A DNA stretch of 64,000 nt from the NCBI RefSeq assembly GCF_038630985.1, contig NZ_CP152049.1:4483501-4547500 (forward strand), written 5' to 3'. The notes under the pieces were generated by a model. The model worked only from the letters and a program-made list of their open reading frames with translations, was not told the DNA's origin and searched no databases. The position numbers were made by a program, and so were the translations under genes. Every line of letters begins with the position of its first letter. Positions within the stretch are counted from its first letter, which is position 1. The DNA is from Paenibacillus sp. FSL H8-0548 (GTDB taxonomy: Bacteria; Bacillota; Bacilli; Paenibacillales; Paenibacillaceae). Positions 6,390 through 44,816 of the stretch are shown here, piece after piece.

Positions 6390-6848
6390 GTCAAGAAAGT
6401 AGCCGGGTTTTAGGTTGGATAAGCACGTATGCGTGCTTATTGAGCTGTATCGGCGTGTGGCTGAGGTGGAAAAGTGTGTTTAAGCGCATATGTGTTCTTA
6501 ACGAGTCAAAGTAGCCGGGTTTTAGGTTGGATAAGCACGTATGCGTGCTTATTGAGCTGTATCGGCGTGTGGCTGAGGTGGAAAAGTGTGCTTAAGCGCA
6601 TATGTGTTCTTAACGCGTCAAAGTAGCTGGGTTTTAGGTTGGATAAGCACGTGTGCGTGCTTATTGAGCTGTATCGGCGTGTGGCTGAGGCGGGAAAGTG
6701 TGTTTAAGCGCATATGTGTTCTTAACGAGTCAAAATAGCTGGGTTTTAGGTTGGATAAGCACGTGTGCGTGCTTATTGAGCTGTATCGGCGTGTGGCAGA
6801 GGCGGAAAAGTGTGCTTAAGCGCATATGTGTTCTTAACGCGTCAAAGT
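6390..6848 (-). repeat. Array 1: four tandem copies of a 112-bp repeat
   Basis: Four near-identical units with a period of exactly 112 bp; the 22-bp palindrome cores start at 6419, 6531, 6643 and 6755. Each unit has a strong palindrome TAAGCACG-N4-CGTGCTTA, then a second related element TTAAGCGCATATGTGTTCTTAA. The loop of the palindrome is TATG in the first two copies and TGTG in the last two. The same family forms array 2 at 26.2-27.4 kb in the opposite orientation. The period is not a multiple of three, and no conserved frame or ribosome site is seen, so it is not coding. Confidence 0.92.
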
Positions 6849-24499: not shown

Positions 24500-24885
24500 A
24501 ATCCATCACCAACTATTAATATATTTTTGGGAAATGTAAAAAATGTAAATTATAATGAAACTCGCTTTAATTAAAGCAATTAAAAGAGTTTATGTCAATG
24601 ACTTTTGACCTATTAATTCCGCTCTTTAATAAGCATATTTTCCTATTTAAATTTATAATTCAATTTATTTGTGACCTAAGAACTAATGTTCGTTTTGAAT
24701 TATTTTTTTATCAATGTTCTTTGTCGAATACTACATTTATTATACTACACTTCGACAAAAAGCGAGCTGGAAATTATATTAAAAAATAATATTTTTCAAT
24801 AATAATATTTTTATTTTTGTAAGCGGTTTATTATATCGTTCTCACCATGAGGAACTCAAATGACGAATTATGCTATAATTTCTTT
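24500..24885. other. AT-rich divergent intergenic region between pilB and the MFS gene
   Basis: 386 bp of AT-rich DNA. For pilB a TATAAT (minus strand, 24554-24549) lies 50 bp upstream of its start. For the MFS gene a TGCTATAAT lies at 24871-24879, only 6 bp before ATG 24886. A 16-codon frame with its own GAGGAA site (24860-24910, MTNYAIISLWNNGKKI) overlaps the MFS start in another frame. Confidence 0.5.
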
Positions 24886-26106
24886 ATGGAACAATGGAAA
24901 AAAAATCTGATCGTGTTATGGTTCGGACAATTTCTCGTTATGGCTGGAATGACGATGATTATACCGTTCCTATCTCTCTATCTGCAATTTGATTTAGGCT
25001 TATCCGATAAGCATGAAATTGGAATTTGGGCTGGTCTTATTTTTGCCGGCAACTTCGTTACATCCTTTATATTTCAACCGATATGGGGAAAAGCGGCTGA
25101 CCGCTATGGTCGGAAAATGATGCTGCTTCGCTCAGGTTTTGGCATGTCCATTGTGATGATTCTCATGGGCTTTGCCACAAATCCGTGGCATCTACTGCTG
25201 CTTCGCATGCTGAATGGTACGATTTCGGGATTCAATCCGGCCTCCATCGCATTGATATCGGCTACGACGCCAAAAAACAAAATGGGCTTTGCGATGGGCA
25301 CGATTCAATCCGGGGGTATTGCCGGTACGATACTTGGCCCTTTCATAGGCGGATTGCTCGCTGACAGCATTGGCTTCAGGCCTATCTTCTACCTGACAGG
25401 AGCGTTGCTCTTTGCAGCCTCGCTGCTTGCCATGCTCGTTGTCAAAGAGCCCTTTGACCGCATGAAGGCCGCTGCTCGGGTACAGGCATCTGTCATTGAA
25501 GGCTTTCGTCAGCTAAGCGGAATTCCGCAGCTAACCGCTTTATTTGCGGTCACATTCCTGATGCAATTTGCAATGATGAGCCCAATGACACTTATTCCGC
25601 TCTACGTTCAGGAGCTGCACGGCACAACCGCTAATCTCGCCTTTTTCGCAGGCTTCGTCGGCTCTGTCACAGGCCTCTCGAATCTTGTCGCCTCACCGCT
25701 GCTAGGAAAGCTGAGCGATCGAATCGGCGCAGAACGAGTGCTTGGCGTCGCGCTTGTTGGAGCCTCGCTCTCCTTTATTCCACAGGCTATGGCAGGAACA
25801 GTCTGGCAATTGCTGCTAGCTCGCTTTGTACTTGGTATTTTTCTGGGAGGCCTTATTCCAGCCGTAAACTCCCTGATTCGAAAATACACACCGGACGGCA
25901 TGGAGAGCCGCTCCTACAGCTTCAACACCAGTACAATGAGCCTTGGCAATATGATCGGACCAATCACGGGCGGTGCCCTGTCCGGCTGGATCGGCATTCA
26001 AGGACTGTTCCTGCTATCTGCGGTCATGCTTATGATCAATGCAGGATGGGTATGGCAATCGCTGCTGCGCAAGCGTCCGCTAGCTCAGCACGGCAAGGAC
26101 GGCTGA
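24886..26106 (+). CDS. MFS multidrug efflux transporter
   Basis: A 406-residue 12-helix major facilitator transporter of the DHA1 drug:proton antiporter type. Start MEQWKKNLIVLWFGQFLV is typical for the Bacillota homologues; motif A-like GKAADRYGRKMMLL is in loop 2-3, GTILGPFIGG is antiporter motif C in helix 5, and LGKLSDRIGAERVL repeats motif A in the second half. ATG 24886 lacks a normal ribosome site, so translation may be leaderless or coupled to a short overlapping frame; an upstream in-frame ATG at 24847 is less likely. Confidence 0.87.
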   Translation: MEQWKKNLIVLWFGQFLVMAGMTMIIPFLSLYLQFDLGLSDKHEIGIWAGLIFAGNFVTSFIFQPIWGKAADRYGRKMMLLRSGFGMSIVMILMGFATNPWHLLLLRMLNGTISGFNPASIALISATTPKNKMGFAMGTIQSGGIAGTILGPFIGGLLADSIGFRPIFYLTGALLFAASLLAMLVVKEPFDRMKAAARVQASVIEGFRQLSGIPQLTALFAVTFLMQFAMMSPMTLIPLYVQELHGTTANLAFFAGFVGSVTGLSNLVASPLLGKLSDRIGAERVLGVALVGASLSFIPQAMAGTVWQLLLARFVLGIFLGGLIPAVNSLIRKYTPDGMESRSYSFNTSTMSLGNMIGPITGGALSGWIGIQGLFLLSAVMLMINAGWVWQSLLRKRPLAQHGKDG

Positions 26107-26119
26107 GACATTGATTAGT

Positions 26120-26155
26120 AAAGGGGCGAGTGGATAATATCCCACTCGCCCCTTT
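26120..26155 (+). terminator. Strong terminator after the MFS gene
   Basis: AAAGGGGCGAGTGG and CCACTCGCCCCTTT form a 14-bp perfect stem 14 bp after the stop. Confidence 0.9.
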
Positions 26156-26180
26156 CATCGTTCTGCTGCGGCAGCTTTCC

Positions 26181-27384
26181 TCTTCATCCACACGCCGAAA
26201 CAGCTCAATAAGCACGCATACGTGCTTATCGAACCCAGAAACCGGCTACTTTCCCGCGATAAGAACACATATGCGCTTAAACACACTTTCCCGCAGCATC
26301 CACACGCCGAAACAGCCCGAAACAGCTCAATAAGCACGCATACGTGCTTATTGCACCTAAAACCTGGTTACTTTGCCGCTGTAAGAACACATATGCGCTT
26401 AAACACACTTTTCCGACTCATCCACCCACCGAAACTGCCCGAAACAGCTCAATAAGCACGCATACGTGCTTATTGCACCTAGAACCCGGCTACTTTGCCG
26501 CTGTAAGAACACATATGCGCTTAAACACACTTTCCCGCAGCATCCACACGCCGAAACAGCCCGAAACAGCGCAATAAGCACGCATACGTGCTTATTGCAC
26601 CTAAAACCCGGCTACTTTGCCGCTGTAAGAACACATATGCGCTTAAACACACTTTCCCGTCTCATCCACACGCCGAAACAGCTCAATAAGCACGCATACG
26701 TGCTTATCCAACCTAAAACCCAGCTACTTTACCGCGATAAGAACACATATGCGCTTAAAGTCAATTTCCCACCTCATCCACACGCCAAAACAGCTCAATA
26801 AGCACGCATACGTGCTTATCGAACCCAGAAACCGGCTACTTTGCCGCTGTAAGAACACATATGCGCTTAAACACACTTTCCCGCAGCATCCACACGCCGA
26901 AACAGCCCGAAACAGCGCAATAAGCACGCATACGTGCTTATTGCACCTAAAACCTGGTTACTTTGCCGCTGTAAGAACACATATGCGCTTAAACATACTT
27001 TTCCATCTCATCCACGCGCCGAAACAGCCCGAAACAGCTCAATAAGCACGCATACGTGCTTATTGCACCTAAAACCCGGCTACTTTGCCGCTGTAAGAAC
27101 ACATATGCGCTTAAACACACTTTCCCGTCTCATCCACACGCCGAAACAGCCCGAAACAGTGCAATAAGCACGCATACGTGCTTATTGCACCTAAAACCTG
27201 GTTACTTTGCCGCGATAAGAACACATATGCGCTTAAACACACTTTTCCATCTCATCCACACACCGAAACTGCCCGAAACAGCCCAATAAGCACACATACG
27301 TGCTTATCCAACCTAATACCTAGCTACGTTACCGCGATAAGAACACATATGCGCTTAAACACACTTTTCCGTCTCATCCACCTG
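26181..27384 (+). repeat. Array 2: ten tandem copies of a 112/122-bp repeat
   Basis: Ten units with palindrome cores AATAAGCACG-CATA-CGTGCTTAT starting at 26207, 26329, 26451, 26573, 26685, 26797, 26919, 27041, 27163 and 27285. The period is 122 bp except for two 112-bp steps that lack a 10-bp GCCCGAAACA duplication. Each unit holds a second related element TAAGAACACATATGCGCTTA about 51 bp after the first. It is the reverse complement of array 1 (6.4-6.85 kb). Open frames through it are accidental: unit length is not a multiple of three, and no ribosome sites occur. There are no unique spacers, so it is not CRISPR. Confidence 0.93.
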
Positions 27385-27396
27385 CGCCAAAAAAAC

Positions 27397-27439
27397 ACGC
27401 CCTGTTCCTAGCGAATTTAAGTCGCAGGGATCAGGGCGT
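27397..27439 (-). terminator. Terminator of the O-methyltransferase gene
   Basis: ACGCCCTG and CAGGGCGT form the stem; on the minus strand a run of seven T follows. It separates the methyltransferase gene from array 2. Confidence 0.75.
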
Positions 27440-27455
27440 TGCTTGTTCGCTACCC

Positions 27456-28079
27456 TTATTTGACGATTGCTATTGCCAGACCGTCATATCCGGGCAGTAC
27501 GGTGCTTTGCAGCCGCTGGTCCGACGCGATTGTTTCATTAAAGTAACGAACTGCTCGAACAGCTGGGCCTGCTTTGGCTGGATCGATTGTTCTGCCGCGC
27601 AGCAAAATATTATCGCCCACGATAATAGCGCCTGGCTCTGCCAGCGCGATCGCATATTCCAGATAAATCGGGTAACCTTCCTTATCTGCATCGATAAAAA
27701 AGAAATCAAACTTGCGTCCTGACTCCTTGAGCTCCGCTAAGCTTTGCTTCGCATCACCTACGATATACTCTACCTTATCTCCTAAACCAGCAGCTTTCAT
27801 ATGTACCTTCGCTACATCCGCATAGCTTTGCAGCAGCTCAAGAGATACCAGCTTGCCGCCTTGAGGAAGTCCACGCGCCAAGCAAATACCGCTGTACCCG
27901 CCAAGCGCTCCTATTTCTACGATATTCTGCGCTTTCGATAGCGTCACAAGCATCGTAAGCAGCCTGCCATATCCATCAGCAACCGAAATATCCGGCATTC
28001 CGTTTGCCGCAATTCCTGCTTTTGTTCGTTCCAGATCGGCATCTGCGCCATAAAGCGAATCTACATATTGTTCATCCAA
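27456..28079 (-). CDS. O-methyltransferase (class I, CCoAMT-like)
   Basis: A 207-residue SAM-dependent O-methyltransferase of the family 3 (caffeoyl-CoA OMT-like) group. The SAM-binding motif VEIGALGGYSGICLARGLP, acidic LVSLELL, and the metal-site stretch FFFIDADKEGYPIYLEYA then VGDNILLRG are seen. The natural substrate cannot be told from sequence. The start is TTG 28079, with AAAGGA upstream; a five-codon frame (MIPLG) ends across this start and may couple translation. Confidence 0.87.
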   Translation of the reverse strand: MDEQYVDSLYGADADLERTKAGIAANGMPDISVADGYGRLLTMLVTLSKAQNIVEIGALGGYSGICLARGLPQGGKLVSLELLQSYADVAKVHMKAAGLGDKVEYIVGDAKQSLAELKESGRKFDFFFIDADKEGYPIYLEYAIALAEPGAIIVGDNILLRGRTIDPAKAGPAVRAVRYFNETIASDQRLQSTVLPGYDGLAIAIVK

Positions 28080-44745: not shown

Positions 44746-44816
44746 GTTTTGTGAAGCAAAACTTACTTCGTAAGCATAAGCTCTGTTTTGTGAAGCAAAA
44801 CTTACTTCGTAAGCAT
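44746..44816. repeat. Two 32-bp direct repeats, each with two small hairpins
   Basis: Bases 44746-44777 and 44785-44816 are identical (period 39 bp). Each contains GTTTTG-TGAAG-CAAAAC and CTTAC-TTC-GTAAG, two tight hairpins in series. They lie between the small basic gene and the GNAT gene. Confidence 0.85.

Follow-up and report, generated by a model that had tools for sequence, protein, structure and literature searches.

The region between the genes for an MFS transporter and an O-methyltransferase in Paenibacillus sp. FSL H8-0548 is occupied by a tandem array of palindromic units. This raises the question of what such an array is for, and whether it acts as DNA or as RNA. An earlier note, made from the sequence alone, had taken the palindrome to be a protein-binding site or an RNA hairpin belonging to no described family. 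The last point agrees with our searches: the window gave no match to Rfam at gathering scores, and we found no description of these arrays in the open-licence literature. The window is the whole stretch of DNA analyzed here, i.e. 64,000 nucleotides corresponding to positions 4483501-4547500 of the single-contig 7.35-Mb genome.

Each repeat unit contains two dyads

The core is present in ten copies (26207-27308) with start-to-start distances of 122 bp in seven cases and 112 bp in two, as had been reported. Allowing up to three mismatches, the core pattern matches the window 25 times (counting both strands and both arrays), compared with none in 100 shuffles, and TRF places the array at 26195-27381. 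A perfect palindrome had been claimed for every unit; six of the ten cores are exact copies of the 24-mer AATAAGCACGCATACGTGCTTATT, and the others carry one mismatch (three cores) or two (one core). A relaxed dyad pattern revealed a second dyad (dyad B) in every unit, so the ten units carry 20 sites rather than one palindrome each (Table 1). All 20 share the relaxed 20-bp form TAAGnnCnnATnnGnnCTTA. Where the long spacer takes its 51-bp form, giving a spacing of 71, the extra 10 bp appear by eye to be an additional CCGAAACAGC-like block. The array described earlier is therefore real, but only half of it had been seen.

Table 1. Positions of the dyads, spacers and neighbouring features in the window.
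Feature	Position	Strand	Remarks
Dyad array, 20 dyads (10 A + 10 B)	26209-27357	.	A-to-B 51, B-to-A 61 or 71
Dyad A, copy 1, TAAGCACGCATACGTGCTTA	26209-26228	.	the palindrome of the earlier note
Dyad A, other starts	26331, 26453, 26575, 26687, 26799, 26921, 27043, 27165, 27287		
Dyad B, copy 1, TAAGAACACATATGCGCTTA	26260-26279	.	51 bp after dyad A; poor hairpin
Dyad B, other starts	26382, 26504, 26626, 26738, 26850, 26972, 27094, 27216, 27338		
Short spacer, 31 bp, copy 1	26229-26259	.	
Long spacer, copy 1	26280-26330	.	51-bp form; 41 bp elsewhere
MFS transporter gene	24847-26106	+	left neighbour of the array; PF07690, 8.4e-69
O-methyltransferase gene	27456-28079	-	right neighbour, convergent; PF01596, 5e-41
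Terminator-like hairpin 3′ of the MFS gene	26107-26175	+	-33.3 kcal/mol, z -5.4; followed by only three T
Terminator-like hairpin 3′ of the methyltransferase gene	27365-27455	-	-34.4 kcal/mol, z -3.5; followed by GTTTTTTT
Second array, 8 dyads	6420-6836	.	spacing 61/51, opposite orientation; TRF 6396-6848

The array had been called non-coding. Open reading frames of 111 and 98 amino acids do cross it, but the reading frame shifts from one unit to the next, since neither 112 nor 122 is divisible by three. It had also been described as lying between two terminators. RNA from either flank folds strongly, but neither a terminator scan nor a stricter home-made test called a terminator at either flank; the placement was likely a call made by eye rather than demonstrated. 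Among the arrays of this genome 10 of 37 gene-to-array gaps pass the strict home-made test, compared with 1 of 72 coding stretches; the two gaps of the array in the window fail it.

A higher-order repeat is found at 26184-27371 (period 468, 2.5 copies by TRF) that resembles satellite DNA; blocks of several units were copied together in this array. The second array in the window sits between two minus-strand genes, and an array of FJAT-28004 (L143) has flanking genes homologous to those of this second array. TRF also reports a 19-bp tandem repeat at 44746-44803 (3 copies, 66% matches), apparently unrelated to the dyads.

Arrays throughout the chromosome

Across the genome, 310 sites match the relaxed dyad pattern exactly, and the reversed control pattern matches none. 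The stretches that were fetched cover 254 of the 257 adjacent dyad pairs and make up 25 arrays holding 300 of the 310 exact dyads; ten exact dyads lie outside them, and further small arrays are possible. Clusters were defined with up to two mismatches at the 12 fixed positions, and on this basis the 25 arrays contain between 2 and 45 dyads each, 316 altogether. The spacings are 51 (143 times), 61 (131), 71 (7), 62 (3) and 50 (3), with 48, 60, 64 and 103 once each; seven of the 25 came from a search with a 51-bp-pair model, which favours the spacing of 51. The chromosome lacks arrays at about 3.2-4.5 Mb and 6.3-7.35/0-0.3 Mb, a distribution that was judged informally not to be unusual.

The arrays lie at the ends of genes. 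With ORFs called mechanically, 13 of the 25 are between convergent genes, 11 between co-directional genes and one between divergent genes. Taking all sets together, 92 arrays or single dyads are flanked by ORFs on both sides, of which 36 are convergent, 51 co-directional and 5 divergent. The upstream stop codon is the nearer end in 38 of the 51 co-directional cases (median 95 bp, vs 179 bp).

The spacers of different loci in this genome are still alike, with a median identity of 0.48 for those of 51-bp pairs (0.30 when shuffled) and 0.54 for those of 61-bp pairs. This resemblance is a sign of shared descent, so that array counts within the genome overstate the number of independent cases.

The dyads are spaced by whole turns of the helix

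Spacings were collected from 96 arrays. In this set the genomes G064 and G390 stand in for the six named loci of P. harenae and P. sacheonensis, and loci L063-L115 of other genus genomes stand outside it. The spacing is 51 in 339 cases and 61 in 276, followed by 62 (24), 50 (14), 71 (9), 60 (7) and 52 (6), with a few others that include 41, 80 and 81. Spacings from 53 to 59 number only 7 in total, although the pair patterns admitted any value from 51 to 61. For the distinct spacings below 100 bp in each array (n = 208) R is 0.911 at a period of 10.1-10.2. On removal of 51 and 61 (n = 56) R is 0.68 at 10.2, with the best period at 10.4. The significance of this phasing is overstated, since the arrays are kin by descent and some were found via their spacing. 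The spacing thus moves in steps of about 10 bp, i.e. whole helical turns, which places the sites on one face of the DNA. We note that one cluster in G390 (L205) has successive spacings of 80, 81, 50, 61 and 50, so that steps of eight, five and six turns occur together.

The spacers also carry a phased pattern. The A/T phase is positive in 25 of 25 arrays (51-bp pairs) and 24 of 24 (61-bp pairs) in the genome of FSL H8-0548; overall the figures are 79 of 86 and 64 of 66 respectively. In the spacers alone the A/T signal is broad, peaking at periods of 10.5 to 11.5 rather than sharply at 10.2. It is clearest about 20 bp from the dyad center, where A/T is found in both kinds of spacer, and at 25.5, where G/C is found in the long spacers.

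The dyads are conserved at the same loci in related species

An array is present at the MFS/methyltransferase locus in three relatives, with 8 dyads in P. paridis, 6 in Paenibacillus sp. FSL A5-0031 and 17 in ‘Bacillus’ sp. FJAT-28004, compared with 20 in FSL H8-0548. Comparing 51-bp pairs with those of the window array, the core identity is 0.83-0.92 (0.63-0.82 at the core positions left open by the search), while that of the spacers is 0.44-0.49 (0.25-0.26 when shuffled). For 61-bp pairs the spacer identity is 0.26-0.44, where the window array has only two such pairs to compare. FSL A5-0031 and FJAT-28004 are nearer to each other, with spacer identities of 0.76 and 0.67. Within the window array the corresponding values for the 51-bp pairs are 0.99 for the core and 0.81 for the linker. 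Core and linker therefore do not vary at the same rate, here between species rather than strains; the equal rates that the earlier note had named as a refutation are not seen, and the selection on the core that it had proposed is supported. In these relatives the same loci are occupied with varied copy numbers, the dyads and their spacing persisting as the spacers diverge.

The ftsZ locus has dyads in eight genomes, with anything from a single dyad to an array of 24; the fetched pieces that include ftsZ itself have a gene 90-97% identical to that of FSL H8-0548. The position at ftsZ is the most widely shared among the loci compared. In the eight genomes the dyads are directly 3′ of ftsZ or beside its right-hand neighbour (L058, 3173-5569; genome 3182378-3183569).

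The genome G064 provides a set in which the dyads were found singly (30 exact dyads, all of them fetched). A 51-bp pair is contained in 15 of its 19 clusters, and the remaining four read 50, 50, 61 and 113. The spacers of these 15 have a median identity of 0.32, vs 0.30 when shuffled, and 4 of 105 pairs exceed 0.6.

Distribution in other genomes

At least one exact dyad is present in 26 of 51 genomes of the genus and none in the other 25; from this patchy distribution, the array system is not essential to the genus. Twelve of the 51 contain six or more (310, 201, 169, 112, 75, 30, 25, 24, 16, 7, 6 and 6), where the control pattern gave at most 4 matches in any of the 51. A stricter pair pattern was matched in 8 of 394 genomes of the family, including FSL H8-0548. 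In the named collection it found 47 stretches, i.e. 15 in FJAT-28004, 13 in FSL A5-0031, 9 in P. paridis, 4 in P. harenae, 3 in P. sinopodophylli, 2 in P. sacheonensis and 1 in a Paenibacillaceae MAG.

Beyond the family, the sequence model identified 7 of 392 genomes of the order, among them FSL H8-0548 and representatives of two other families. Of 398 genomes of the class, just that of FSL H8-0548 contained a match to a looser exact 51-bp pattern, but this pattern is blind to other outer letters. In one of the other families (f7, genome G057) three arrays have dyads such as TAAGCGCGAATTCGCGCTTA and a 51-bp step, except for a single 45 in L233; one of the three contains a second dyad, judged by eye, at distances of 31 and 20 bp from the adjacent ones. 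In the other family (f6, G514 and a named MAG record) dyads of the form TAACGGC...GCCGTTA and TAAGGCC...GGCCTTA are mostly 50-52 bp apart, with some gaps close to 100 at degenerate or missing dyads. Tandem dyads of other letters with a 51-bp step are seen at L233, L235 (both G057), L237 (G514) and L147. The 51-bp step thus outlasts a change of dyad letters in these two families, where the model that found these arrays was built from 51-bp pairs and favours that spacing.

Could the arrays be passive? Satellites or non-autonomous mobile repeats would be multiplied by unequal exchange after some putative element had seeded them, and would require no host function. The units are homogeneous within an array and differ between arrays, the copy number at one locus ranges from 6 to 20, multi-unit blocks are found with the period of 468, the spacers of different loci in FSL H8-0548 are alike as if spread by copying, and the genus distribution is patchy, all of which such an origin would explain. 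But the dyads and their spacing survive the loss of spacer similarity, loci are conserved between species, and PF01797 (one transposase family) is absent from FSL H8-0548 and from the other 11 genomes that have six dyads or more. Nor was there a match to the pair pattern in viral contigs, or a blastn match to the MFS/methyltransferase array in plasmids and phages, and an origin from a mobile element was rejected on these grounds. Taken as a whole the passive explanation seems unlikely.

The arrays might alternatively serve as sinks for gyrase or another topoisomerase in the manner of E. coli BIME-2, with gyrase wrapping phased, bendable DNA where convergent transcription piles up positive supercoils. 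The location at gene ends, convergent for 13 of the 25 arrays, and the phased A/T and G/C pattern would fit. By contrast, on general grounds the dyad is far more specific than one would expect of so general an enzyme, and the genus genomes that lack an exact dyad all presumably have gyrase. We consider this quite unlikely.

The dyads are probably DNA sites rather than RNA hairpins

If the arms of the dyads were selected to pair, changes in one should be matched in the other. Pairing between the left and right arms of a dyad was compared with a control in which the partner arms came from different arrays within one species, pooling FSL H8-0548 (the 18 arrays known at that point), FJAT-28004 (17), FSL A5-0031 (13) and P. 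paridis (9); P. sinopodophylli (3 arrays) and P. harenae (5) were also run but left unpooled, being few. At the inner variable positions pairing was 0.478, vs 0.520 expected (z -3.1). The outer positions -1 and -4 had an excess of pairing (z 4.1 and 3.2). An earlier test with all species together had given an excess at several positions. Restricting the partners to one species removed it at -2, 5 and 6 and left it at -1 and -4.

Symmetric changes that preserve pairing are rare among the one- and two-step changes inside arrays, with none of 65 in FSL H8-0548 and 1 of 145 in four relatives. There are 0 of 13 in the low-copy genomes plus MAG and 2 of 16 in the other families, the MAG record L147 being counted in both of these groups. 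The array L237 has two symmetric pair-preserving changes. Some pressure or process for dyad symmetry exists, since there is both the excess at the outer positions and the double changes in the other families.

Hairpins formed in 3′ regions of transcripts might stabilize them or terminate transcription from both directions. Dyad A would suit this, folding well as RNA (-11.7 kcal/mol, z -4.8), the arrays come after stop codons, and the outer positions have their excess of pairing. But dyad B, present in every unit, does not fold (-2.8 kcal/mol, z -1.1), the inner positions pair below chance, and the array in the window lies outside both terminator-like hairpins. Moreover the orientation of the arrays ignores transcription; the short spacer runs in the direction of transcription in 17 of 42 co-directional arrays and opposite to it in 25 (13 and 22 respectively in the 35 of clear direction). 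The lack of covariation in the inner arms and the independence of orientation from transcription together make RNA hairpins very improbable, and we have rejected them. At least in the lineage of FSL H8-0548, the dyad is on this evidence better explained as a DNA target of two half-sites than as an RNA or cruciform hairpin. Of the two possibilities in the earlier note it is therefore that of a protein site that is favoured. The second dyad and the helical phasing had been overlooked.

Comparison with known systems

The closest resemblance is to the REP and BIME elements (E. coli BIME-2 and the REPINs of Pseudomonas), which are high-copy extragenic palindromes in regularly spaced clusters at the 3′ ends of genes and between convergent genes. 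The Paenibacillus arrays are likewise extragenic, 3′ of genes, and mostly in convergent or co-directional settings. Unlike REP and BIME elements they fix their spacing in helical turns, with two spacer lengths in alternation, and their inner arm positions are not kept complementary. PMC3733652 describes REPs as carrying a terminal GTAG or CGTC tag and as often occurring with RAYT genes. Using the tags as defined there, we found GTAG within 8 bp outside the dyad foot in 5 of the 316 dyads of the 25 arrays in FSL H8-0548, and CGTC in one. The REP-associated Y1 tyrosine transposase (PF01797, the RAYT family) is found in 8 of the 51 genus genomes, each with 0 or 1 dyad, whereas the dyad-rich genomes lack this one family, as noted above; an element of REP/BIME type driven by such a transposase was accordingly rejected. 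The main texts of PMC3733652 and PMC2817692 mention neither ‘Paenibacillus’ nor ‘Firmicutes’.

CRISPR arrays also have a short palindromic repeat and regular spacers. In the Paenibacillus arrays, by contrast, the spacers have two fixed lengths and recur within an array (0.81-0.85 identical in that of the window), where those of CRISPR are unique. No Cas protein is present among nine annotated proteins flanking five of the arrays.

In parS-type sites, iterons, and the sites of Noc and MatP, many copies of one site are bound by a single protein, and iterons are moreover tandem and helically phased. The Paenibacillus arrays share the many copies of one site and, with iterons, the tandem, phased arrangement, but differ in sequence, in comprising some 25 tandem arrays over the chromosome, and in alternating between five and six turns. 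The known phased operators of DNA-wrapping regulators, including the Lrp family and others, lie in promoters. These likewise present dyads on one face of the DNA with phased, bendable DNA between, but the Paenibacillus arrays are mostly past the ends of genes, with up to 45 dyads in a row.

A possible function of the arrays

The sites, and their number, spacing, phase, conservation and position, are direct observations. From them we infer a protein, bending and a function, and we consider that, with a probability of about one-half, these are lineage-specific, helically phased binding arrays for a putative sequence-specific dimeric protein that bends DNA. Each 20-bp dyad would comprise two half-sites TAAGnRCnYA around a central AT, with the putative dimer reading TAAGnRC in two major grooves. 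The sites are five or six helical turns apart, occasionally four, seven or eight, so that all the dimers would lie on the same face, and because the A/T tracts of the spacers share a phase the DNA between sites could bend round the complex. This would give a compact, phased segment of DNA and protein past the ends of genes. Candidate roles are in nucleoid architecture, in titrating the protein as a sink, or as a topological or transcriptional barrier between neighbouring genes, which are often convergent, where it could block the consequences of convergent transcription or absorb them.

The genes annotated beside five of the arrays do not point to the binding protein. The nine annotated flanking proteins have no common theme, and no gene linked to the arrays was found; the nine comprise FtsZ, ATP-grasp, a PucR regulator, MFS, O-methyltransferase, AhpC/TSA, a HAD hydrolase and a glycoside hydrolase, and a ninth with a weak REase-like match below its cut-off.

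More tentatively, the arrays may be a bacterial chromatin element, in which a putative dedicated protein wraps the phased dyads into a nucleosome-like fibre at gene ends. Since two other families keep the 51-bp step with different dyads, the constraint would fall on the geometry (the phase of about 10.2 bp, the five- and six-turn steps and the symmetry) more than on the letters.

Even if the arrays were selfish they would represent a family of extragenic palindromes persisting without the usual REP transposase family, in which array geometry is better conserved than spacer sequence. The arrays supply natural spacing variants (41, 51, 61, 71 and 81 bp) together with replicates from species to species. 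If a protein does build such phased arrays, bacteria would have a sequence-directed chromosome organizer of a new kind.
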